Positions 8,516-20,772 of a stretch of DNA of 20,772 bases are shown piece by piece. Below the pieces are notes generated by a model that worked only from the letters and a program-made list of their open reading frames with translations, was not told where the DNA came from and ran no database searches. This DNA is from a virus, in IMG/VR virus record IMGVR_UViG_3300012358_000010, positions 1 to 20,772 of that record. The stretch is one strand, 5' to 3'. Positions within the stretch are counted from its first letter, which is position 1. Each line of letters opens with the position of its first letter. Made by a program: the position numbers and the translations under genes.

Positions 8516-8627
8516 GCTCCTCATGCTGAGGAGCCGCGCGCAGCGCGGCGTCTCGAAGCATGTCCCGAGACCGCGCGCGGCCGTCCTTCGAGACGCATCG
8601 CTGTCGCGATGCTCCTCAGGACGAGGC
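8516..8627. repeat. palindromic repeat, family A copy 1 (GCTCCTCATGCTGAGGAGC...)
   Basis: It contains the perfect hairpin GCTCCTCA-TGC-TGAGGAGC (8516-8534), GTCTCGAAGCATG, and an inverted half CTTCGAGACGC...GCTCCTCAGGACGAGG. Related copies lie at 9279, 10611, 11735 and 17566. Its left hairpin supplies the AGGAG ribosome binding site of the tail hub gene. Confidence 0.85.
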
Positions 8628-9254
8628 TCACGGCGTGACGCCCATCACCCGCACGGCGCCGGGCGCGCCGCCGCGCGTCTTGTGGTTGAGCTTGTCGAGC
8701 TCGTCGAAGATTTCGTCGCGGCGCGCCTTCCACAATGGCGCGCGCTCGTCGTTGACTCCGAACATTTCCGCTTCGACCAGCGAGCCGAACAGATAAAGGT
8801 CAGGATGCGCGGTCAGCAGCCAGTTTGTCTGCGTGCCATCGCCCGGCGCGAGCGTGGCGAGCGCGGGGATTTTCTGGAAATAGTCGAACTCGAGCGGGGT
8901 GGCGTCGAGGGGCCGCACCTTCAAGGTCGAGCCTTCGATGGTGAAGAGGCGCGGCACGTCCGCCGGCGAGGTGGGGTAAGCCGCCTGCAGGTAGGACGGA
9001 TGCACGTATTCGAGCTCGACTCGGGTCGAGCCGGTCCATGTCACGCGCCGCCAGGCAAGATAGTCGGATGGAAGCGCAACCGAGCCGTTGGACGGCGTCA
9101 GATTGGTCGAGGTCTCCTGCTGGCGCACGCGCAGCCGCCGATTGGCGCAGGCCTCGAACAGCGCGATGAACTCCGGCACGCGCGCCGTGAACAGCGTGTG
9201 GTCGAGCCAATTGCCGATCGCGGTCTGCAGCTCGGCATAGGTGGTGATGGCCAT
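8628..9254 (-). CDS. phage head-tail adaptor (connector) protein
   Basis: This 208-residue protein (MAITTYAELQTAIGNWLDHT) has the layout of podovirus/SU10-type adaptors. An N-terminal helical part (FIALFEACANRRLRVRQQET) is followed by VALPSDYLAWRRVTW, then strands (RLFTIEGSTLKVRPLDATPL). The signature block FDYFQKIPALATL...TNWLLTAHPDLYLFGSLVEA is followed by a C-terminal helix. The P-x-D-x-L and NWLL-x-x-x-PDLYL-x-G segments are what I rely on. It forms a ring below the portal and joins it to the tail hub; the hub gene follows directly, separated only by repeat A. The TGA stop abuts that repeat. No strong ribosome binding site is seen before the ATG at 9254. Confidence 0.8.
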   Translation of the reverse strand: MAITTYAELQTAIGNWLDHTLFTARVPEFIALFEACANRRLRVRQQETSTNLTPSNGSVALPSDYLAWRRVTWTGSTRVELEYVHPSYLQAAYPTSPADVPRLFTIEGSTLKVRPLDATPLEFDYFQKIPALATLAPGDGTQTNWLLTAHPDLYLFGSLVEAEMFGVNDERAPLWKARRDEIFDELDKLNHKTRGGAPGAVRVMGVTP

Positions 9255-9278
9255 GGCGCTATCCGGTCAGTTGTCTCG

Positions 9279-9462
9279 GTCCTCATCCTGAGGAGCGGGC
9301 GAAGCCCGCGTCTCGAAGGATGGCCACGGGCCTCATGCTTCGAGACGCGCGCTTCCTCATGGTGAGGTGCCCGCCCCCATCCCTTCGAGACGCGGTCTTC
9401 GGACCGCTCCTCAGGATGAGGGCGGGCCTCGAACCACGCGCGGCTCCTCAGCATGAGGACGA
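9279..9462. repeat. palindromic repeat, family A copy 2 (composite)
   Basis: Several A-type units are joined: TCCTCATCCTGAGGAGC, GTCTCGAAGGATG, CATGCTTCGAGACGC, CCTCATGGTGAGGTG, CTTCGAGACGCGGTC and GGCTCCTCAGCATGAGGA. It sits between the adaptor gene and the upstream small gene. Confidence 0.85.
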
Positions 9463-9469
9463 GCCAGCA

Positions 9470-9534
9470 GTAGCCCGCATGAGCGAAGCGATATGCGGGG
9501 CACCCCGGATGTCGCTGGCGCTCATCCGGGCTAC
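9470..9534. repeat. palindromic repeat, family C copy 1 (GTAGCCCGGAT type)
   Basis: Terminal GTAGCCCGCATGAGCG and CGCTCATCCGGGCTAC are near-perfect inverted arms. The last arm supplies the TAG stop codon of the gene ending at 9531. The same family is inserted in frame in the portal gene at 15260-15355. Confidence 0.9.
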
Positions 9535-10552: not shown

Positions 10553-10610
10553 GATGATCTCCTATTGGAAGGGCACCGCAGGCGGCGCCCACCACGTGAC
10601 AGTCTCTCCC

Positions 10611-10720
10611 CCTCATGCTGAGGAGGGCGCGCAGCGCCCGTCTCGAAGCATGCGGGGCACGGTGCCCGCCCTCATCCTTCGAGACGCGGTCCTACGGACC
10701 GCTCCTCAGGACGAGGGCGG
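10611..10720. repeat. palindromic repeat, family A copy 3
   Basis: It is built of CCTCATGCTGAGGAG, GCGCGCAGCGCCCGTCTCGAAGC, CCTTCGAGACGCGGTCC and GCTCCTCAGGACGAGGGCGG. It fills the gap between the major capsid gene stop (10738) and the next start (10552). Confidence 0.85.
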
Positions 10721-10737
10721 AGATAGAGCGGTGGTGC

Positions 10738-11734: not shown

Positions 11735-11923
11735 CCTCATGCTGAGGAGCGGCGCGTGGTTCGAGGCCCGCCCTCATCCTTAGGAGCGGTCCGAAGGACC
11801 GCGTCTCGAAGGATAAGGGCGGGCACCTCACCATGAGGATGCGCCGCGTCTCGAAGCATGAGGCGGGGCGCCCTCGCCCTTCGAGACGCGTCGCTTTCGC
11901 GACGCTCCTCAGGACGAGGGCGG
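11735..11923. repeat. palindromic repeat, family A copy 4 (composite)
   Basis: At least three A units are joined in alternating orientation: CCTCATGCTGAGGAGCGGC, GGTCCGAAGGACCGCGTCTC, CACCTCACCATGAGGATG, CTTCGAGACGC and GCTCCTCAGGACGAGGGCGG. It lies between the scaffold gene and the capsid gene. Confidence 0.85.
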
Positions 11924-11949
11924 ACCGATCGTCCGCAGTTCGTCGTGTG

Positions 11950-13071
11950 TTACCGGGCCGCCCGGCGCGCGCGCAGCAAGGCCGCGGCGTCCTTCAAGCT
12001 GCCGGTTTGTTCGAGCCGTTCGGTGAGGTGTTGAACGCGCGCCTCGTCCGTGCCTGCACGGGCGGTGGCGGCGCCGGGCCGCTGAACCGGGGGAACGGGC
12101 CTAGTGGCCGCAGCCTTGGCTTTGGCCTGCGCCTCGCGCCAGAGCGTCGCGTCGCGGATCAGGAGCTGCACGCGGTGGTCGCGAAGGGAGAGGTCCTTCT
12201 GACCGTTCCACGATTGCGCCAGCTCCGCTTCGTCGAAACCCAGGTCGCTCAGCACGGCGAGCGCCTTTTTCTGCAGCTCGGCGGCTTTCGCCTCGTCCGC
12301 CATGTCGGGGACTTTCTCCTTGAAGAGATGGTCCTCGCGTTTGGCGAAGTCGGTGAACTGGGCAAGCTTCTCGACAACCTGCCGGTGCTGCGCCGCGAGC
12401 AGCTGCTGGCCGACCTCAGCGATCTTCTTTTGCTGCAGGTCCCAGAGCAAGTAGCGCGGCCAATCCTCGCGCGCCAAGCGCTCGACATCCGCCATCGACT
12501 TGATGTCGGCGAACTCGCCCGCCTGTTGGTTCTGCAGGGTTGCGAGAAGCTGCGGCAGTGCCGCTTCGTAGTGCTGCCTTGCCTGTTCCACCGTCTGCTC
12601 TTTGGCGCTGAGGCCCTTGAGCTTTTCGGCGGCTTCGTTCTGACGGCGGAGAAAATCGCTCTCGCGTGACCGCTCGCGCTCGGCAAGACGTTCCTGCGTC
12701 GCGCGGGGGAGGCTCGCAAAGAGCTCCTTGTCCTCCTTCGTCCAAGACCTCGGCGGCTCGATGGGCGGCGGCTCGTCGGCCGCCGGATCGGTGCCTTCAG
12801 TCTTCTCACCAGGATCCTGCGCGTTCGCAGGAGTGGCGGCGTCCGTTGCATCAACGGTCGATTCTGTTGCAGCACCCGGCACTGCCGTTGCGGCGCGCTC
12901 GGAAGCTGTTGCATCTGTGTCACTCGGCTTGCGATGCCGCAATTTGGTGAGCATCGCGGCCGCTTCCGATGTGCTGATGCGTGTCGGCGTATCGGCCGGC
13001 GCGGTGACTTCAACGGCGTAAGGCACTGCGCTGTCGGCGCCCGAAGCGCCAACGTCGGTGGCAACGTCCAT
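11950..13071 (-). CDS. phage capsid scaffold-like protein
   Basis: This 373-residue protein starts at ATG 13071, with GAGAGGA 4-5 bases upstream. The N-terminal third is low-complexity and rich in Ala, Thr, Asp and Pro, ending DEPPPIEPPRSWTKEDKEL. The rest is strongly helical and charged, with likely coiled coils (RATQERLAERERSRESDFLR, KLKGLSAKEQTVEQARQHYE) and a basic C-terminus (RARRAAR). A disordered acidic head, a long helical middle and a basic tail are typical of phage scaffolding proteins, whose basic tail binds the capsid protein. The gene immediately precedes the major capsid gene, as expected. No protease motif is seen. Confidence 0.75.
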   Translation of the reverse strand: MDVATDVGASGADSAVPYAVEVTAPADTPTRISTSEAAAMLTKLRHRKPSDTDATASERAATAVPGAATESTVDATDAATPANAQDPGEKTEGTDPAADEPPPIEPPRSWTKEDKELFASLPRATQERLAERERSRESDFLRRQNEAAEKLKGLSAKEQTVEQARQHYEAALPQLLATLQNQQAGEFADIKSMADVERLAREDWPRYLLWDLQQKKIAEVGQQLLAAQHRQVVEKLAQFTDFAKREDHLFKEKVPDMADEAKAAELQKKALAVLSDLGFDEAELAQSWNGQKDLSLRDHRVQLLIRDATLWREAQAKAKAAATRPVPPVQRPGAATARAGTDEARVQHLTERLEQTGSLKDAAALLRARRAAR

Positions 13072-13523: not shown

Positions 13524-13617
13524 GTAGGGTGGGCTAAGGCGCGTGAGCGCCGCAGCCCACCGGCGGTATTGCCGCGCGGATGGAACGGTGGGCTGCGCTT
13601 CGCTTAGCCCACCCTAC
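13524..13617. repeat. palindromic repeat, family B copy 2
   Basis: Ends GTAGGGTGGGC and GCCCACCCTAC match copy 1 at 3087-3176, as do the inner GGGCTGCGCTTCGCTTAGCC bases. It supplies the last codons (Arg-Val-Gly) and TAA stop of the portal gene. Confidence 0.9.
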
Positions 13618-15886
13618 AAGCTTTGGCGTCGCGCACGATGCGCTTGGCCGCGTCGGCACGTTTGAGCTGCTCGGTCAGCTCGAGGATCGGACGCAGCATC
13701 GGATGCTCCGCAGGCACGCCCTCGCCGGAGGCACCGCCCGCGGCAGTTGATCCGCCGCCGTTCACGAGCGTCTCGGCAAAGGATTGCGCCATGTCCTGCT
13801 GATGGCGTTCGCGCGCGATCTGCAGGTCGAGCAGCTTCAACTCCTTCTCGAGCGCGAATTTTTCCCGCTCGAAGGCGAGCTGCGCCTCGAGCTTCATCTT
13901 CTGGTGCGCGGCGTCGGTCTCGATCTTGGCCTTCTCGGCCGCCGCCTTGGCCGCGATCTCCGCCTGCTTCGGGTCGGCCGGGGGCGTCAACGGCGCTGAG
14001 GCTCTATCTGTGGGGTTCACCGGCGCCCCCGGCGCCGTGAAGAAAGCGTCCACGTTCTTGTGGCCGGCGAGCTTCACCAGCTCCTTGGCCGAATGGTAGA
14101 GGTTTTTGGCGCTGACCAGACCGGCGGCGATCGCCTCCTTCTGCGCGGCGATGATCAGCTGCAGATGCGCCAGCTGCTCGCTCTTCGACCCGGTGCCGAG
14201 CCCGACATTGATGGTCATATCGGCCCGCGCTCTCCAGTCTCTCGGATCAACAGTGACCCACTGATTGCGCAGCCGCACGGTCTGCGCCTGCGAGCCGTGC
14301 TTGCGGATCGTGGCGTGCAACAGCGAGAAGAGATCGCGGATGCCCGTCTCGGCGAAGATGCGGGCGATCAGCTTCACCTTGGCCTGGCTCGCGTTGAACA
14401 TCTGGTTGGCGATGGTCGCCACCTGGTTCTGCAGCGCGTTGGGATCGACCCCCTGCCCTTGCCGCGACACGCCGGTGCGCCACTCGCGCGTGGCGTCCTG
14501 ATATTGCAGCAGCGGAAAGACGTCGCCGCCGATGTCGGGATGCTTGAGCACGGTGAGCCCGCCCGGCATCTTGGTGCGCACGATCCCGCCCGGGCGCGAG
14601 ACGAGAAGATCATCGAGCGTGGTCTCGGTGGCGTGGCTCTCCGGCACTTCGGTGCGCGGGTTGTTGGCGAGATAGGCGTTGTCGAGCAGGGCGCGCAGCA
14701 GCGCCGTCTTGATGCGCTGGATGTCCATCACCAGATCGGCGATCGAGCGGCCGAAAAATCGGTGTGTGACGATGACCGGCGTCATCGCCGCGAACGGGAT
14801 GACGTCCTCGCGCACCACGTCGGGCCGCCCATCCCGCAAGAGAACTTCGCCCTCCTCGCCGGCCGTGGTGACGCGGTAGAGCGCAGCCTCGCCGGCGCCG
14901 TCATAGTCCATGCGCACATAGTGCTCGGTGATGCGGATCAGCCGGCTCGCCTCGTTGAGCCCGTCGTCGCCTTGGCGCAGCGTCGACTCGTTGACCGTGT
15001 CGCGCGCCTGCTCCTCGATGGTGTGCGACTGCGTATAAGACGGCAGTTTTTGCACCTGCTCGCGGTCGTAGCCTTGGGCGATGAGTTGCGACTGCGTGCG
15101 GAACACGTCGTGGAAGCAATAGTCCGCGTCCTTGATCGAGCGTGCGCGCCGGCTGATGCCGAACTCCTCGGGCGTGACGCCCTCGACCCGGGCGCATTCC
15201 TTGGTGCGGCGGATTTCGATGGTGACATCGTGCAGCTTGGGGCGCGGCGCGGCCTGTTCGTAGCCCGGATGAGCGCCAGCGACATCCGGGGCAGTTTCGC
15301 CGCGCGGCACGAGTCCCGGATTTCCGCCCGCTTGCGCGGGCGTCATCCGGGCTACAAGCGGAGCATCGCGCTCCGTGTGCTCTACAATCTCCACTCCCGG
15401 CTGCGCAACGATCAGCGCAAAGGCATCGTCGGGCTGGTCGAGATAGGTCTCGCGCTCGACCTCCGTCCGGCACTCCCACCACACCTTGACCACGCCGACT
15501 TTCGACAGCAGCGCATCCTTGATGAAGGAATAGAGCACCAGGAAGCCGTTGTTCTGCTGCATGAAGACGTGGTTGACGTAATCGGTCTCCTGCTCGGCGG
15601 CGGCCACGTCCTCCGGCCCGACCGGGGCAAACCGCACCACCTCGTCGCCCGAGGCGAAAATCTCCATCAGCGGCGGCATCAGGCCTTCGATGGTGTCGGC
15701 GACGTCGCTCGAGACGGCTTTGGAACGTCCGTCCGGGGCCGGCATGTCTTTCGACATGTCGCCCATGTAATAGTTGAGCGCAGACGCGCGTTCGTCGGAG
15801 AGCTTCGATGCGGCCATCGCCGAAAGCGCGTCATAGCGCTCGGCGGACAGCAGCGCCTTGAGATCGATCGCGGACATTTTCGGCAT
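13604..15886 (-). CDS. phage portal protein, P22/SU10 type, with in-frame repeat insertion
   Basis: This 760-residue protein starts at ATG 15886. Blocks include KDMPAPDGRSKAVSSDVADT, EGLMPPLMEIFASGDEVVRF, YVNHVFMQQNNGFLVLYSFI, DALLSKVGVVKVWW, EEFGISRRARSIKDADYCFH, FGRSIADLVMDIQRIKTALL, and a C-terminal coiled coil (residues about 640-700). These are the usual features of P22/SU10-type portals, the twelve-subunit ring through which DNA enters and leaves the head. Residues 178-209 (VARMTPAQAGG...GAHPGY) are not portal sequence: they are encoded by a 96-bp palindromic repeat inserted in frame between EHTERDAPL and EQAAPRPKLH. The final residues CRVG and TAA come from repeat B. No terminase gene is seen upstream. 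The frame is open throughout; whether the protein still works is unknown. Confidence 0.88.
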   Translation of the reverse strand: MPKMSAIDLKALLSAERYDALSAMAASKLSDERASALNYYMGDMSKDMPAPDGRSKAVSSDVADTIEGLMPPLMEIFASGDEVVRFAPVGPEDVAAAEQETDYVNHVFMQQNNGFLVLYSFIKDALLSKVGVVKVWWECRTEVERETYLDQPDDAFALIVAQPGVEIVEHTERDAPLVARMTPAQAGGNPGLVPRGETAPDVAGAHPGYEQAAPRPKLHDVTIEIRRTKECARVEGVTPEEFGISRRARSIKDADYCFHDVFRTQSQLIAQGYDREQVQKLPSYTQSHTIEEQARDTVNESTLRQGDDGLNEASRLIRITEHYVRMDYDGAGEAALYRVTTAGEEGEVLLRDGRPDVVREDVIPFAAMTPVIVTHRFFGRSIADLVMDIQRIKTALLRALLDNAYLANNPRTEVPESHATETTLDDLLVSRPGGIVRTKMPGGLTVLKHPDIGGDVFPLLQYQDATREWRTGVSRQGQGVDPNALQNQVATIANQMFNASQAKVKLIARIFAETGIRDLFSLLHATIRKHGSQAQTVRLRNQWVTVDPRDWRARADMTINVGLGTGSKSEQLAHLQLIIAAQKEAIAAGLVSAKNLYHSAKELVKLAGHKNVDAFFTAPGAPVNPTDRASAPLTPPADPKQAEIAAKAAAEKAKIETDAAHQKMKLEAQLAFEREKFALEKELKLLDLQIARERHQQDMAQSFAETLVNGGGSTAAGGASGEGVPAEHPMLRPILELTEQLKRADAAKRIVRDAKACRVG
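15260..15355. repeat. palindromic repeat, family C copy 2, inside the portal gene
   Basis: Arms GTAGCCCGGATGA (15260-15272) and TCATCCGGGCTAC (15343-15355) are perfect inverted repeats. The 96-bp length is exactly 32 codons, and the portal frame reads through without a stop. Related copies are at 9470-9534 and 17370-17410. Confidence 0.92.
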
Positions 15887-15931
15887 GGCTATTTCCGGCT
15901 ATCGGCGCAGCCTGTCGTGCTCGAGAGTCAT

Positions 15932-15980
15932 CGGGAGGATCGGCGCCGCAAGGAGCCGGCGGCGCAAAGCGATCCTCCCG
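15932..15980. other. long hairpin in front of the portal gene
   Basis: CGGGAGGATCG (15932-15942) pairs perfectly with CGATCCTCCCG (15970-15980). Inside it GCGCCGC (15943-15949) pairs with GCGGCGC (15959-15965), leaving a 4-base bulge (AAAG) and a 9-base loop. This 18-bp stem lies 46 bases ahead of the portal start and would be in its mRNA leader. It could be a regulatory leader, an attenuator-like structure or another repeat type. Confidence 0.65.
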
Positions 15981-16025
15981 CGCCGACGCCCGCGGGAGGA
16001 GCAGGCATCGAAAACGGTGCTTAAC

Positions 16026-16088
16026 GCATATTTTCGGTGAATACGCTTTTCTGGAAGATTCCCGTTACACGAGTCAAGCGAAAAATGC
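16026..16088. repeat. direct repeat, family E copy 1
   Basis: The core TTTTCGGTGAATACGC, TTTTCTGGAAGATTC, CGTTACACGAGTCAAGCGAA is shared with 17262-17322 and 17763-17820, all in the same orientation. The TGA stop of the methyltransferase gene, and its last codons AFFA, lie in this copy. Confidence 0.88.
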
Positions 16089-17204
16089 GGGCGTATCCCG
16101 GTTCGCCTGTGGCGGAAGACGATTCGGGGGTCGCTTGTGCCAAACGCGATTGAAAAAACACGGGATTACCGGATCGCTACGGTCCACGACCAGCTCCCAG
16201 TCCGGATGCAGACGGTAGCTATGGATGGTCAGGTCGGTCCCATCGCTGGGATTTTTCCAGGCCTTGAACTGCTTGAGAAAGATGTGTCCGCGCGACAGTC
16301 GCTGAAACTCGGTGAGATAGAGATCGACCTGATCCTGGCGCATCTCCGGCAGCGTGCTGATCGATACCATGACATCGAAGTAGTTGTCCGGGAACTTGCG
16401 GATCTGGTTCGCGGTGAAGAGCGCGACGGAAGCCCGATCGATCTCGTCCTGCACATCCTCGATCCTGTCGAAGTGGCGAAAGCGAAAGACCCGTTCGCGA
16501 CCAAGGGTCTGCTCCAGGTACCATTGCGCGACGGCCAAGGCCGGCGGAATGTCGAAGATAAAATATCGGCCCGGCAACGAGCTGGCGTAGGCATGGGCAA
16601 CACGGCCGTATCCTGCGCCGAGTTCGCCGATGCGCGGCGCCGATACGCCCTCCGTAACATCTGCGAGCACGTTGCATTCCATGATCGAGCTCGCGAGATC
16701 CTGGCTCAAGAGCTTCCGGCCGCATCGCAGCGGAAACGGATTGCCGATCTCCGGCTCGGCAACTCTCAACCGCAGCCGATGGCGGTCAAGTCGGCGCATG
16801 ATCGTCCAAACGAAGCATACGTAGAGGCGATAGGTGTGGCGCTGCCTTGCGCTCAATTCGACGCGGCCATCGACCGTATTGGTTCGCAAACGCCGGGTTT
16901 CCTCCAAGCGGGTCAGCAGCGGCAACAGGTTGGGACGGCGGCACCATTGCCGAAACACGTGACGGAAGAGATCAGACTTGCGGTCGGCGACGAGCCAATT
17001 GAAGTAGTTTTGCGATACCGTGCGCTTGAAGTTCGCCAGCCCCTCTTCCTCCAACATGCGCCGGTTCTTGTCGTTGAGATCGCGCCAAAAGGCAGACGGC
17101 AAGAACACGGGATCATCGGCTTCGAGCTCGGCCGCCATGTCGATCGCGGCGACTTCGCTCGATCTCATGCTTGCAACGTGCTGCGCGTCTGGCAATTTAC
17201 GCAC
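16074..17204 (-). CDS. putative sugar O-methyltransferase
   Basis: This protein has up to 376 residues. The N-terminal block PSAFWRDLNDKNRRMLEEEG, NFKRTVSQNYFNWL is that of the putative sugar O-methyltransferase family (NanM-like; TIGR04371 by recall). The SAM-binding motif I is GELGAGYGRVAHAY (residues 193-206), followed by the acidic strand RYFIFDIPPALAVAQWYL and a post-motif FDVMVSISTLPEM. It would transfer a methyl group to a surface or exported glycan; the acceptor is unknown. The start is uncertain: GTG 17204 gives the full frame and ATG 17168 gives 364 residues, and neither has a clear ribosome binding site. Its base composition is less GC-rich than its neighbours. It lies between direct copies of repeat E, and its stop codon is inside one of them, suggesting a separate origin from the phage genes. 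Confidence 0.8.
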   Translation of the reverse strand: MRKLPDAQHVASMRSSEVAAIDMAAELEADDPVFLPSAFWRDLNDKNRRMLEEEGLANFKRTVSQNYFNWLVADRKSDLFRHVFRQWCRRPNLLPLLTRLEETRRLRTNTVDGRVELSARQRHTYRLYVCFVWTIMRRLDRHRLRLRVAEPEIGNPFPLRCGRKLLSQDLASSIMECNVLADVTEGVSAPRIGELGAGYGRVAHAYASSLPGRYFIFDIPPALAVAQWYLEQTLGRERVFRFRHFDRIEDVQDEIDRASVALFTANQIRKFPDNYFDVMVSISTLPEMRQDQVDLYLTEFQRLSRGHIFLKQFKAWKNPSDGTDLTIHSYRLHPDWELVVDRSDPVIPCFFNRVWHKRPPNRLPPQANRDTPAFFA

Positions 17205-17261
17205 TCACGTGGGGCGGCAGCGCCAAGGGAGCGATCCCGGCGGCGGCGGTACGATGGTCCA

Positions 17262-17322
17262 TGCGTATTTTCGGTGAATACGCTTTTCTGGAAGATTCTC
17301 GTTACGTGAGTCAAGTGAAAAA
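17262..17322. repeat. direct repeat, family E copy 2
   Basis: TTTTCGGTGAATACGC, TTTTCTGGAAGATTC, CGTTACGTGAGTCAAGTGAA shows only a few substitutions from copy 1. It lies about 60 bases upstream of the methyltransferase start, so the gene is bracketed by direct copies 1.2 kb apart. Confidence 0.88.
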
Positions 17323-17369
17323 TTCATGATTTTGATTTGTCGTGCCGCGATAACAGTTTAGCATCCGTT

Positions 17370-17410
17370 GTAGCCCGGATGTCGCCCGCGCAGCGGGCGG
17401 ACATCCGGGA
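17370..17410. repeat. palindromic repeat, family C copy 3
   Basis: GTAGCCCGGATGTC, then the small hairpin CGCCCGC-GCA-GCGGGCG, then GACATCCGGG. It is a short version of the element found in the portal gene. Confidence 0.85.
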
Positions 17411-17450
17411 GTCTCTGCCAACGCGGTCCTGCATGTCGCCATATCAGTTT

Positions 17451-17550
17451 GTAGCCCGGGTTGAGCCCTGCGAAAGCGGGGGGAAACCCCGGGGCGGTCT
17501 CGCCGCACTCCATCCATTCCCGCATGCCGCTACGCTCCGTCCGGCCTACG
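17451..17550. repeat. palindromic repeat, family C-like copy 4
   Basis: It begins GTAGCCCGGGTTGAGC, has an inner AACCCCGGGGC block, and ends GTCCGGCCTACG. It belongs to the longer, more divergent form of the GTAGCCCGG family and forms a cluster with its neighbours. Confidence 0.65.
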
Positions 17551-17565
17551 TAGCTTGGGGCTGAA

Positions 17566-17744
17566 TCCTCGTCCTGAGGAGGGCGCGTTAGCGCCCGTCT
17601 CGAAGGACGGCCCCGGCTCATGCTTCGAGACGCCGCGCTCCTCATGGTGAGGTGCCAGCCCTCTTCCTTCGAGACGCGGTCCTTTTGGACCGCTCCTCAG
17701 GATGAGGGCTGGTCTCGAACCACGCGCGGCTCCTCAGCATGAGC
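17566..17744. repeat. palindromic repeat, family A copy 5 (composite)
   Basis: TCCTCGTCCTGAGGAGGGC, GTCTCGAAGGACGG, CATGCTTCGAGACGCC, CCTCATGGTGAGGTG, CTTCGAGACGCGGTCC and GGCTCCTCAGCATGAG follow the same order of units as copy 2 at 9279-9462. No gene is seen between 17205 and 17842; this 640-base stretch is made almost entirely of repeats C, A and E. Confidence 0.85.
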
Positions 17745-17762
17745 GGCCGTTAGAGCCGATGC

Positions 17763-17820
17763 GCAATTTCGGTGAATAATCTTTTCTGGAAGATTCTCGT
17801 TACACGAGTCAAGCGAAAAA
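17763..17820. repeat. direct repeat, family E copy 3
   Basis: AATTTCGGTGAATAATC, TTTTCTGGAAGATTC, CGTTACACGAGTCAAGCGAA. It lies in the same orientation as copies 1 and 2, just downstream of the lipoprotein gene. Confidence 0.88.
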
Positions 17821-17842
17821 TTCGCAAGCGAGAATTCTCGTG

Positions 17843-18301
17843 TCATTGCTGCGGTTTGGCAGGATTCAGCCGCGCCGCTTCGACCTTTTCGTAGGTTTCG
17901 CCCGCGCAGCCGTCCTGCGGCGTCGCGCGGCGGCGGTCGGCGAGTTTTCCGCGCTCGATGATGACGATGAGCGTGATCGGCTGCGGCTGACCATTGATCG
18001 CCCCGGCGACGACCGCCTTCACGCAAACGCTTAAGCCGCGCCCGGTGATGCGCTTGGGCCGCGCGACGGCGAGCGCGCTGGGATGCGCGGTGAAAAGCGT
18101 GTCGGCGTTGGCGCGGATCAACTCTTTGACGTCGAGCTCGGGCTCGGCCGGGGGCGGCGGCGGCTCCGGTTGCCGAAAGGCCTTCGGCATAAGGCTCGCC
18201 GCCTGGTCGGCCAGTTTCGGCATGAAGCTCGCCGCCTGGTCGGTCAGGTCGCACGCCGCGAGCGCCATGGCGCAAGCAACGAGCATCGTTGCGATCTTCA
18301 T
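17843..18301 (-). CDS. lipoprotein of unknown function
   Basis: This 152-residue protein starts at ATG 18301 (MKIATMLVACAMALAAC) and has a lipobox LAAC with Cys17, so it should be lipidated and membrane-anchored. The ATG at 18310 adds three residues and is less likely because MKIA is the natural signal start. An 11-residue tandem repeat (TDQAASFMPKL, ADQAASLMPKA) follows the Cys. Next come a Pro-rich linker (EPPPPPAEPE) and a compact domain with LIRANADTLFTAHPSAL, CVKAVVAGAINGQPQPITLI and two Cys (CVKAV, DGCAGE) that could form a disulfide. It lies 53 bases after the 18354-18641 gene in the same direction. The family is common in rhizobial relatives, and its function is unknown to me. Confidence 0.75.
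   Translation of the reverse strand: MKIATMLVACAMALAACDLTDQAASFMPKLADQAASLMPKAFRQPEPPPPPAEPELDVKELIRANADTLFTAHPSALAVARPKRITGRGLSVCVKAVVAGAINGQPQPITLIVIIERGKLADRRRATPQDGCAGETYEKVEAARLNPAKPQQ
18185..18250. repeat. 33-bp tandem duplication inside the lipoprotein gene
   Basis: Two 33-bp units (18185-18217 and 18218-18250) share CTCGCCGCCTGGTCGG and flanks with few substitutions. They encode an 11-residue repeat directly after the lipidated Cys. Confidence 0.8.
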
Positions 18302-18353
18302 CGCTGGCATGGCAGCACCGGTCGCGCGCTTGCGCGGTGATTGGCCAATCAGA

Positions 18354-18641
18354 TCAGCTCGGGCGCGACGGGCGCAAGACCTTGCGCGTGGGCGAGCGCC
18401 ACTGGCAGCCGTACGGCCACGGCTCCTGCGGACAGGCCCAGGCCGACGTGATTGGACGAGGCTCCGGCTTGTGACGGCGAATGGCGAGTCGATCGCTCTT
18501 GGCGGTGACGGGCGCGGCGTTTGCTGCGGTCATGGGCGGGGCGGCCGGCGGCCTTACCTCGGGGCTGGCGGCGAGCGCGGTCACCACGGCGGCGCCGATG
18601 GCGAGCACGATCGAACCGGCGGCAAGCCTGAAAGCGGACAT
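18354..18641 (-). CDS. small exported or membrane-anchored protein
   Basis: This 95-residue protein starts at ATG 18641 (MSAFRLAAGSIVLAIGAAVV), with a hydrophobic segment at residues 5-25 ending TALAASPE, which looks like a signal peptide. A GTG 12 bases upstream is possible but less likely. The rest is Pro/Ala-rich, then basic (RLAIRRHKPEPRP), then a C-terminal ACPQEPWPYGCQWRSPTRKV block with two Cys that could pair. The ending with C-P-x-x-P-W-P-Y-G-C resembles small rhizobial exported proteins of unknown function. It is 52 bases ahead of the lipoprotein start, and the two probably share a transcript. Confidence 0.65.
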   Translation of the reverse strand: MSAFRLAAGSIVLAIGAAVVTALAASPEVRPPAAPPMTAANAAPVTAKSDRLAIRRHKPEPRPITSAWACPQEPWPYGCQWRSPTRKVLRPSRPS

Positions 18642-18654
18642 TGACCCACCCACC

Positions 18655-19046
18655 CAGCCGCCCCCGTTGCGCCACAGGCGCGTTCGGGGGTTCTTTGGCC
18701 GTTAGTCGCGCCGGCGCAGCAAAAGGTTCACCGGCGCGGGGAAGTTTTCCCCGCCGCACCGGTCATTTCGGGGCGCGGGCAGCGCAGGCAAGTGTACGCA
18801 GCCTGCGCAAGCTTGGCTGCGTGTGCCCGCAAGCCCGGAATCCTTAAGTACTGCCGGTGGTTATGGGTTGCAGCCCTCGCCGCTATCGCGCTTCGGCCGT
18901 GCGCGACCGCGTCGGCGCCGCCGCGTGAGGGGATCGAAACAGGCCTCGCCCGTGCTGAGATCGTATCGAATGTCCAGACCAGACATCATGCCGGCGAAAC
19001 GCTTGCGAGGCTGTCCAGCGAGCCCGCTACATGACACTGGAAACCA
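18655..19046. other. intergenic stretch with one hairpin and no supported gene
   Basis: A perfect hairpin GCGGGGAA-GTT-TTCCCCGC is at 18736-18754, without a T-tract. An 80-codon + strand frame (18792-19034) has a hydrophobic run but no ribosome binding site and no recognised similarity. Nothing else could be supported. Confidence 0.4.
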
Positions 19047-19238
19047 TCAGCCAAATGAGCGAGAGGTGGTTTCTGGCTTGTGCTTGATGCCGTCGTAGAA
19101 GGCCTGAATGATGTCTTCCTTGAAACGGGGCATGCGGGGATAAGCCGTGACCGCAGCCTCGCGTTGCGCGTCCGTGAACTCCTCATAGGCGATGCCGAGC
19201 ACATCCATCTCGACGCTGCGCGTCCCAAGCCGCGTCAC
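19047..19238 (-). CDS. 63-residue protein of unknown function
   Basis: It begins with GTG at 19238, with GAAGG 7 bases upstream, 10 bases after the stop of the 38-residue membrane peptide gene. It reads VTRLGTRSVEMDVLGIAYEE and continues FTDAQREAAVTAYPRMPRFK and EDIIQAFYDGIKHK, giving soluble amphipathic helices. There is no signal peptide, Cys or enzyme motif. Position and spacing place it as the last gene of the operon with the BTLCP peptidase. A start at ATG 19208 (MDVLG) is possible but lacks the good ribosome binding site. Confidence 0.6.
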   Translation of the reverse strand: MTRLGTRSVEMDVLGIAYEEFTDAQREAAVTAYPRMPRFKEDIIQAFYDGIKHKPETTSRSFG

Positions 19239-19248
19239 GCGCTGGCCT

Positions 19249-19365
19249 TCAGGCTGGAATGTAGAACGACAGAAGCATGACTACGAGGACCAGGACTGAA
19301 TAAAACGCGACTTCCGCGATGTTGAGACCCCACCGCCGCCGCTCCTGTGCAGCTTGCTGGTTCAT
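19249..19365 (-). CDS. 38-residue single-span membrane peptide, coupled to the peptidase
   Basis: A short frame starts at ATG 19365, which overlaps the TGA of the peptidase gene (ATGA), and ends at TGA 19249. The product begins MNQQAAQERRRWGLNIAEVA and ends with a hydrophobic run FYSVLVLVVMLLSFYIPA. A basic N-terminus and one membrane span suggest an inner-membrane peptide with its N-terminus inside. The exact overlap, open frame and the good ribosome binding site of the next gene just after its stop all support a real gene. Its function is unknown; partnership with the peptidase is inferred. Confidence 0.6.
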   Translation of the reverse strand: MNQQAAQERRRWGLNIAEVAFYSVLVLVVMLLSFYIPA

Positions 19366-20264
19366 GGTCGATCTCCTTCGGTCGTAAACAGACGCGCCGA
19401 TCTCCGCGCCATCAGCCCGTTGCCACCAAAATCTAAAATGTTCTGAATCGCTGCCGGGGCCTCCTGTGGCGCCGGAGACCCTGCAGCAAATGTCGTCATG
19501 GCTTGGTAATCCAATGCAATCAGAGGCCGATATTGTGTTGCTTCGAGGCTGTTCACCATCACCATCGTGAGGTTATCGAGCAGCAGCCATTCCTCGTCCA
19601 AATGGACGGCAAGCACGGCGTGAATGGTCCTGCGTCGCGGGTAGCTTACGATCAGGAGGCGCAGGTCATCGGGGCTGATACCTGCTTCGCGTAGCGCCAG
19701 GTATTTCAATATTGCGTAGTCCTCACAGTCGCCCGCTCCCTTTTCAAGGGTAGCGAGTGGCGCCGACCAGAAATCGTCAACGCCGTACTGGGTCCAATCA
19801 CTGGTGGCCCTGATACTCAGGTTCACCGCACGATTGATCTCTCCCAGACGGGCGCGACCCGCGCGTTGGCGACCAAGCTCAACGATCTGCAGCAACCGGC
19901 GCGCTGCTAGCGAGCACGCGTCGGGACTTGCACGACAGGCCGCGACCGTCTCCTCCTCCGAGTCAATGCGTGCCAACACGCCCCTCCATTTCGCGGAGAT
20001 ATCCCGCGTAAGAGCCTGGCCTGACTGAACGTCGGAATTATCGGGAGATTGGCGCGCGTGGGCCGCCGTGAGCAGAGCAATACGGACGAAACGGCGATTT
20101 TGCTCCACGCCATGGGAGCGCTCGACGGTCTGCTTGCCTGCCGCCGCGCCGGCCCGGCGTGCGATTACATCAGCCAAGGGATCCGGCTGTCCAGCCGCCT
20201 GCGCAGCATGGCACAAGAGCGCTATCAGCAACAGCATCGAGGCTATGTGTTGCAGGAGTCGCAT
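19362..20264 (-). CDS. bacterial transglutaminase-like cysteine peptidase (BTLCP)
   Basis: This 300-residue protein starts at ATG 20264 with a signal peptide (residues 1-23, MRLLQHIASMLLLIALLCHA, cut near AQAA). The catalytic domain follows: INRAVNLSIRATSDWTQYG, then KGAGDCEDYAILKYLALREA with Cys180, TIHAVLAVHLDEEWLLLDNL with His215 and Asp230. Cys-His-Asp in GDCEDYA, HAVLAV and LLDN are the BTLCP (DUF920) signatures. The enzyme should act in the periplasm or at the envelope; in relatives BTLCPs such as LapG cut surface adhesins, but here the target is unknown and no adhesin is in view. A C-terminal tail of 40-50 residues (GSPAPQEAPAAIQNIL and on) lies beyond the domain. The last part of the gene is duplicated upstream at 20438-20548. 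Confidence 0.88.
   Translation of the reverse strand: MRLLQHIASMLLLIALLCHAAQAAGQPDPLADVIARRAGAAAGKQTVERSHGVEQNRRFVRIALLTAAHARQSPDNSDVQSGQALTRDISAKWRGVLARIDSEEETVAACRASPDACSLAARRLLQIVELGRQRAGRARLGEINRAVNLSIRATSDWTQYGVDDFWSAPLATLEKGAGDCEDYAILKYLALREAGISPDDLRLLIVSYPRRRTIHAVLAVHLDEEWLLLDNLTMVMVNSLEATQYRPLIALDYQAMTTFAAGSPAPQEAPAAIQNILDFGGNGLMARRSARLFTTEGDRP
19395..19505. repeat. 111-bp direct repeat, copy in the peptidase gene
   Basis: It matches 20438-20548 over 111 bases without gaps and with five substitutions, all transitions. It encodes the C-terminal residues from about 254 to 290 of the peptidase. Confidence 0.92.
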
Positions 20265-20437
20265 GATGTCTCGACCAATCAGACGGGGCTATCATGAGCG
20301 CCGGATATCACTGGACAAATGGTGGTGCCGACCAGAAGTGACTTTTCGAGAATTGCTGTAAGCAATCTAATCTTGCGGAATTGCTCGTTCTCATCTTCGT
20401 GATGAACATACGGATCCCCTCCGTTAGACCCGCATTA
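20265..20437. other. intergenic stretch without a supported gene
   Basis: This 173-base stretch between the peptidase start and the duplicated fragment holds no convincing frame. It is less GC-rich than its surroundings and could contain the peptidase promoter, but no clear -35/-10 pair was found. Confidence 0.4.
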
Positions 20438-20548
20438 CGCCGATCTCCGCACCATCAGCCCGTTGCCACCGAAACCTGAAATGTTCTGAATCGCTGCCGG
20501 GGCCTCCTGTGGCGCCGGAGACCCTGCAGCAAATGCCGTCATGGCTTG
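20435..20548 (-). pseudogene. 3' remnant of a second BTLCP peptidase gene
   Basis: The minus strand encodes AMTAFAAGSPAPQEAPAAIQ, then NISGFGGNGLMVRRSA and a TAA stop at 20437-20435. This corresponds to the C-terminal part of the intact peptidase, whose tail instead continues RLFTTEGDRP. No start or catalytic domain precedes it: the upstream neighbour's stop (20549) is directly adjacent. It is a fragment left by partial duplication, or by deletion between two tandem copies. Confidence 0.8.
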
Positions 20549-20761
20549 TTAGCAGCTGTCGTCGTCGCGGGGATATCCGTGCTTCCAATCCCCGATATAA
20601 GGGTTGTAGCAATTCATGGGACGGTCACCACCGAGACTGGTGTAAGCCGGATTCGAGTCGACGGTGGCCGTTGGCTGTGCTGAGACGGTGGCCGTTTGGT
20701 GTGCTGACGCGGGCGCGAAGCTGGCGAGTGTCAGGACTGCGGAAAGAAGTAACTTATGCAT
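20549..20761 (-). CDS. small secreted protein of unknown function
   Basis: This 70-residue protein starts at ATG 20761, with GGAG 7 bases upstream. The signal peptide MHKLLLSAVLTLASFAPASA ends at an A-x-A site, leaving a mature part of about 50 residues: HQTATVSAQPTATVDSNPAY, then SLGGDRPMNCYNPYIGDWKH and GYPRDDDSC. Two Cys may pair. A 24-bp tandem duplication (20660-20707) encodes the TATVSAQP repeat. It precedes the peptidase remnant and peptidase in the same direction. The family was not recognised. Confidence 0.65.
   Translation of the reverse strand: MHKLLLSAVLTLASFAPASAHQTATVSAQPTATVDSNPAYTSLGGDRPMNCYNPYIGDWKHGYPRDDDSC
20660..20707. repeat. 24-bp tandem duplication in the small secreted protein gene
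   Basis: Two 24-bp units beginning GACGGTGGCCGTT and GACGGTGGCCGTTTGG, both ending GTGCTGA, differ at only two bases. Confidence 0.8.
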
Positions 20762-20772
20762 TCTTCTTCTCC

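Follow-up and report, generated by a model that had tools for sequence, protein, structure and literature searches.

Described parallels to the locus studied here come from bacteria and from phages. Rickettsia palindromic elements (RPEs) lie in frame in protein genes and are read through as an extra peptide, and they are reported in many unrelated bacterial genes (Ogata et al. 2000, 2002, as summarised in PMC10969869). In Bradyrhizobium, Br-REP1 and Br-REP2 are described as dispersed REP elements (PMC5082802). Among phages, the SU10 portal is a dodecamer (PMC9509320), and the prophage ppBeUSDA76-2 spontaneously gives rise to podophage particles (PMC10127595).

We analyzed the window, a stretch of 20,772 nucleotides from the virus record IMGVR_UViG_3300012358_000010, in which a palindromic repeat lies within a portal gene (Table 1). 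Very probably, a palindromic repeat dispersed in the host genome (family A) was inserted at a hairpin loop of the portal, where it is translated as a disordered 32-residue peptide while the portal stays functional. The case is larger than first stated, in that several other repeat families occur at the same site in relatives, and the site is also a point of gene fission.

The portal gene and its in-frame element

The 760-residue product of the portal gene is an SU10-type portal, matching the whole-domain profile PF23899 (SU10_portal) over residues 11-654 (E 2e-196), and it matches a PHROG portal (E 3e-168). Its top Foldseek matches are the portals of Pa223, SU10 and PaP3. After the portal gene come scaffold, capsid and adaptor genes, each of a matching family. 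No terminase was found in the window, the stretch upstream of the portal (15887-20772) included; the related contigs L004 and L007 have one about 1.8 kb upstream.

Table 1. Positions of the portal gene, its repeat element and related features in the window.
Feature	Position	Strand	Basis or remark
SU10-type portal gene, 760 aa, continuous	13604..15886	-	ORF, PF23899 and PHROG portal
Family A palindromic repeat, in frame, codons 178-209	15260..15355	-	Arms; absent in relatives; dispersed in host genus
Left terminal arm GTAGCCCGGATGA	15260..15272	+	0 mismatches
Right terminal arm, reverse complement of left arm	15343..15355	-	0 mismatches
Predicted disordered loop, residues 175-216, between beta-hairpin strands; hypervariable site	15239..15364	-	AlphaFold model and loop lengths
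Portal N part, residues 1-171	15374..15886	-	Separate ORF in split relatives
Portal C part, residues 218-760	13604..15235	-	Separate ORF in split relatives
Second portal hairpin tip, residues 327-334, empty in window	14885..14908	-	Strands 316-326 and 335-342
Head scaffolding protein, no insert in window	11950..13071	-	
Free copy of family A, 65 bp	9470..9534	.	
Free short copy of family A	17370..17410	.	
Family B copy between head genes	8518..8635	.	Others near 9275-9462, 10606-10722, 11735-11924, 17567-17743

In agreement with the first-pass annotation, the element is a 96-bp palindrome with perfect 13-bp arms, exactly 32 codons long and read through in the portal frame without a stop. Its ends coincide with codon boundaries, as codon 178 begins at 15355 and codon 209 ends at 15260, and it encodes the peptide VARMTPAQAGGNPGLVPRGETAPDVAGAHPGY. 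The two free copies that had been listed alongside it are real, with 34 identical bases in the longer one and 90% identity over 52 in the shorter (17364-17413). An open frame alone is weak evidence for the window copy, because four of the six frames of the element lack a stop; for this single copy, only the length, a multiple of three, is informative. As the copy is open and a multiple of three bases long, we take it to be translated as a 32-residue peptide in a functional portal. By analogy with the SU10 dodecamer, a portal ring would carry twelve copies of the added loop.

The whole element and its downstream junction are also found in L008, a near-identical contig with 2 mismatches in 4761 bp. 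L008 ends 12 bp past the element, so that support for the upstream junction comes from the window and from these 12 bp. Repeats do break assemblies, and an end so close to the element would fit a repeat copy misplaced into the portal gene by the assembler. However, the two contigs agree through the element and the downstream junction, and other assemblies carry other in-frame repeats at the same site, which makes such an artefact very improbable.

In an AlphaFold model of the window portal (mean pLDDT 72, pTM 0.58), strands are formed by residues 165-174 and 217-237, and pLDDT falls to 43-48 at residues 181-210. The model puts the element in a loop at what is predicted to be a disordered beta-hairpin tip. 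By sequence alignment, the solved portals of PaP3 and Pa223 have about 8 residues at this site, compared with about 51 in the window portal.

Several further features of the window were observed. In place of a terminase, the region 15887-20772 contains a weakly methyltransferase-like gene and a Peptidase_C93 gene, and near the right end there is a 114-bp direct repeat (19395-19508 and 20438-20551, 95% identical). A repeat of 60-84 nt (TTTTCGGTGAATACGCTTTTCTGGAAGATTC) occurs at 16024-16107, 17261-17344 and 17759-17842. It is also present in L061, in two host loci and, in two copies immediately upstream of the portal, in L004-L007 and L021, and it may act as a promoter-like unit preceding cargo genes. 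Neither tRNAs nor Rfam elements were found in the window.

Host repeats at the portal hairpin

The genome scan with the portal yielded a single locus, and host genomes were reached via G001, an alphaproteobacterial soil MAG in which a fragment of a portal is encoded with 84% identity to that of the window. Family A matches are present in all eight genomes of the G001 genus (4-42 per genome). An 86-bp host copy has the same layout as the window element, with the arms, a ATCCGGGG/TCCCGGAT hairpin and a GC hairpin. Outside the genus, the exact 16-base family A pattern was found in 2 of 101 other genomes of the order, with 13 exact copies in one 8-Mb genome. The dispersal of copies through all eight genomes of this related alphaproteobacterial genus identifies family A as a host repeat and excludes a chance palindrome. 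Among 20 host loci sampled for families A, B and C and judged by ORF layout, with no gene caller, no copy clearly interrupted a recognizable gene. The host loci with repeat matches encode none of the phage proteins tested. Searches of a plasmid collection with the family A element and the L004 loop found no match.

Alignment with related portals, a check proposed at first, shows that the element peptide is absent from 28 aligned portals and from 57 loci of related viral contigs, except for the near-identical L008. Homologues that carry the same segment and lack the palindromic DNA were looked for, and none was seen. Together with the dispersed host copies and the 86-bp host copy, the absence in relatives upholds the earlier claim that a member of a repeat family was inserted here in frame.

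The length of the loop is highly variable: among 92 distinct loops from a broader sample, those that are continuous span 12 to 264 nt. The long loops of distant relatives are rich in Pro, Ala and Gln, mostly non-palindromic, and mostly fold no better than shuffled sequences, which would suit an ordinary variable linker whose palindromic DNA is coincidental. Against this, the window insert has matches among the dispersed host repeats, its folding is better than that of shuffled sequences (z -3.9), and we regard a coincidental palindrome as extremely improbable. Most loops of the window clade and its neighbours also fold better than shuffles; those of L011, L024 and L036 fold well too, and have no host match. 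Host repeats thus provide one source of length in an already permissive loop.

At least five repeat families occur at the portal loop. Family B (CCTTCGAGACGC...CCTCAGGACGAGG) occupies the loop in frame in L010, L021 and L004-L007, and in L021 and L004 additional repeat DNA is nested within it. Families C and E are found together in L009, family E alone in L020/L023, and family D (GCGAATAGCGAGT-type arms) in L012, L013, L019 and L022. The loops of L015, L016 and L056, which resemble family D and had no match in the host DNA searched, probably belong to it as well. Families B, C and D are dispersed in 8/8, 8/8 and 4/8 genomes of the G001 genus, respectively, where many matches of the combined C and E query cover its E part only. 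At E<=1e-3, the loop DNA of 10 of the 16 tested portals matches host DNA, compared with none of 60 control stretches taken from these portal genes, and 135 bases of the L021 loop are 89% identical to a single host copy. The inserts of families A and B share their starting codon position, and every repeat-bearing loop is in frame. A frameshift in the L021 loop was considered and rejected: a separate frameshift lies upstream, near residue 121, and the loop itself is in frame. With the insert columns left out, the tree places families A, B and C together in the window clade (10 rows, SH-aLRT 100), and therefore insertion at the loop happened repeatedly.

Repeats are also present at two other places in the head genes of relatives. 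At the second hairpin tip of the portal, L013, L015 and L016 have in-frame inserts of 32, 21 and 10 residues, respectively, with family E DNA in L013 (974-1004) and L015 (3972-4001). The N-terminal part of the scaffold contains in-frame family E DNA in L010, L021 and L013.

Within the window clade, both flanks of the loop are under strong purifying selection (dN/dS 0.05-0.12). L004 and L010, which both have a family B insert, have diverged (N part dS 0.29, dN/dS 0.11) yet share the in-frame insert, and therefore the frame was kept after insertion. These values bear on the possibility that the window is a dead or decaying prophage, in which an open frame would be a matter of luck and no portal would be made. 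The missing terminase (though the window ends 4.9 kb upstream of the portal), the many repeats between head genes and the four open element frames, by which luck is not rare for one copy, are in line with decay. In contrast, the ORFs for portal, capsid, scaffold and adaptor are open throughout and have strong matches to their families, dN/dS is low on both flanks, and several separate insertions, drawn from different families, all lie in frame; we consider decay quite unlikely.

In all, a family A repeat of the host genome very probably inserted in the phage portal gene at the loop joining the two hairpin strands. The repeat would come from the host chromosome while the phage was integrated. 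The loop may have been chosen by survival and not by the element, being among the few places in the portal that tolerate extra residues, and the inserted peptide would be close to neutral. It is also conceivable that repeat-derived loops were co-opted for a useful task, for instance binding of scaffold, capsid or DNA, and that the insertions are adaptive: the same site is used repeatedly, inserts are kept through divergence, and the scaffold protein of relatives has repeats too. But insert family, length and sequence vary among close relatives, and many portals have no insert (the 12-nt loop is found in 14 distinct cases), to which a permissive linker is the better fit, and co-option seems unlikely. 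A permissive loop tolerating repeats supplied by the host chromosome is the most likely explanation.

Portals split at the same loop

In the family of G036, 29 of 399 genomes match the portal, with the N and C parts as separate ORFs in most of them. The break falls at the same hairpin loop, with the halves on the same strand and in the same order, in 21 Bradyrhizobium-type genomes and in phage ppBeUSDA76-2 (L102-L105, L108-L124 and L067, including OP596614). The count of 21 refers to genomes with both halves on one stretch, and the label Bradyrhizobium-type was given by relation to the named phage. Between 65 bp and 8 kb separate the halves. Neither aligned half contains stops, and dN/dS is 0.02-0.19 for both in the pairs tested; both halves of the split portals are under purifying selection. 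Among viral loops, 13 of 92 are broken. On the tree, at least six transitions between the split and the continuous state are required, and therefore splitting or re-fusion occurred more than once. A group I or II intron was rejected as the cause of the split, with no Rfam match at the gathering score in the gaps (20 sources).

The two chains would assemble into a working portal. We lean slightly towards regarding the hairpin tip as a general break-and-insert point of the SU10-type portal, which takes host-repeat peptides and, in Bradyrhizobium-type prophages, is cut to give two-chain subunits with cargo genes between the halves; the ring would then have 24 chains, not 12. No published split portal was found under the phrase 'split portal' in the literature searched, which does not establish that there is no such report.

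The gaps between the halves have features of their own. About 21 different proteins share a C-terminal tag like AGGLLGMIQDYMRNNGY, and all but one of them are encoded in these gaps (e.g. L111:3532-4641, and on the portal strand L112:2193-3344 and L105:7498-7836); the motif was not found elsewhere in the loci examined. Perhaps the tag is a loading or sorting signal. One cargo gap (L105:2037-2810) contains an extra portal N-part fragment fused to other sequence.

Portals are among the most constrained phage proteins, and the loop looks like a natural site for change in one, because relatives carry other repeats there or have the gene split. Host repeats, long linkers and complete fission form a natural record of the tolerance of a single loop, and hence a test of portal assembly. 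The portal hairpin loop is also a possible tagging site. Finally, the locus is an instance, outside Rickettsia, of host palindromic repeats contributing to protein change.

Comparison with known systems

The window portal shares family and fold with the SU10/PaP3-type portals (PF23899; PDB 7z44, 7sxk, 9nwm), which are single-chain, unlike those of the split relatives. Phage ppBeUSDA76-2 (OP596614) has a related portal (60% identity) that, unlike that of the window, is encoded by two ORFs split at the loop and overlapping as TGATG. Its N half alone is annotated, an example of how annotation can miss the C half of split portals.

With its perfect 13-bp arms, the window element has terminal inverted repeats, as MITEs do. 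In contrast to MITEs, it has no target-site duplication, and its flanks (...CCGCTT and GAACAG...) contain no direct repeat. Br-REP1 and Br-REP2 are, like the families described here, dispersed stem-loop palindromes between genes of the same bacterial group; in the accessible part of PMC5082802, however, their published consensus reads differently from families A-E and they are not reported inside coding sequence. REP elements can be moved by a RAYT, and this mover found no support here: a Y1_Tnp domain (PF01797) occurs in only 2/8 host genomes, with no convincing family A-C copy beside it in these incomplete assemblies.

The first-pass annotation knew of no report of such a repeat in a phage portal, and none was found in the literature searched, in which few subscription papers are covered. 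It also drew the parallel with RPEs, which holds for in-frame insertion in protein genes and does not extend to RPE membership, the host group being a different one. RPEs are elements of Rickettsia, whereas the copies described here come from the genus of G001, the alphaproteobacterial soil MAG, and from an 8-Mb genome within its order. RPEs occupy bacterial genes; the repeats described here occupy phage head genes, recurrently at one hairpin and from several families, and the 20 sampled host copies are without clear in-gene insertion. Both are short palindromic repeats in frame in a protein gene, family A in the portal and the other families in portal or scaffold. By mode of insertion, and not by sequence comparison, RPEs are the nearest parallel, as an analogy only.
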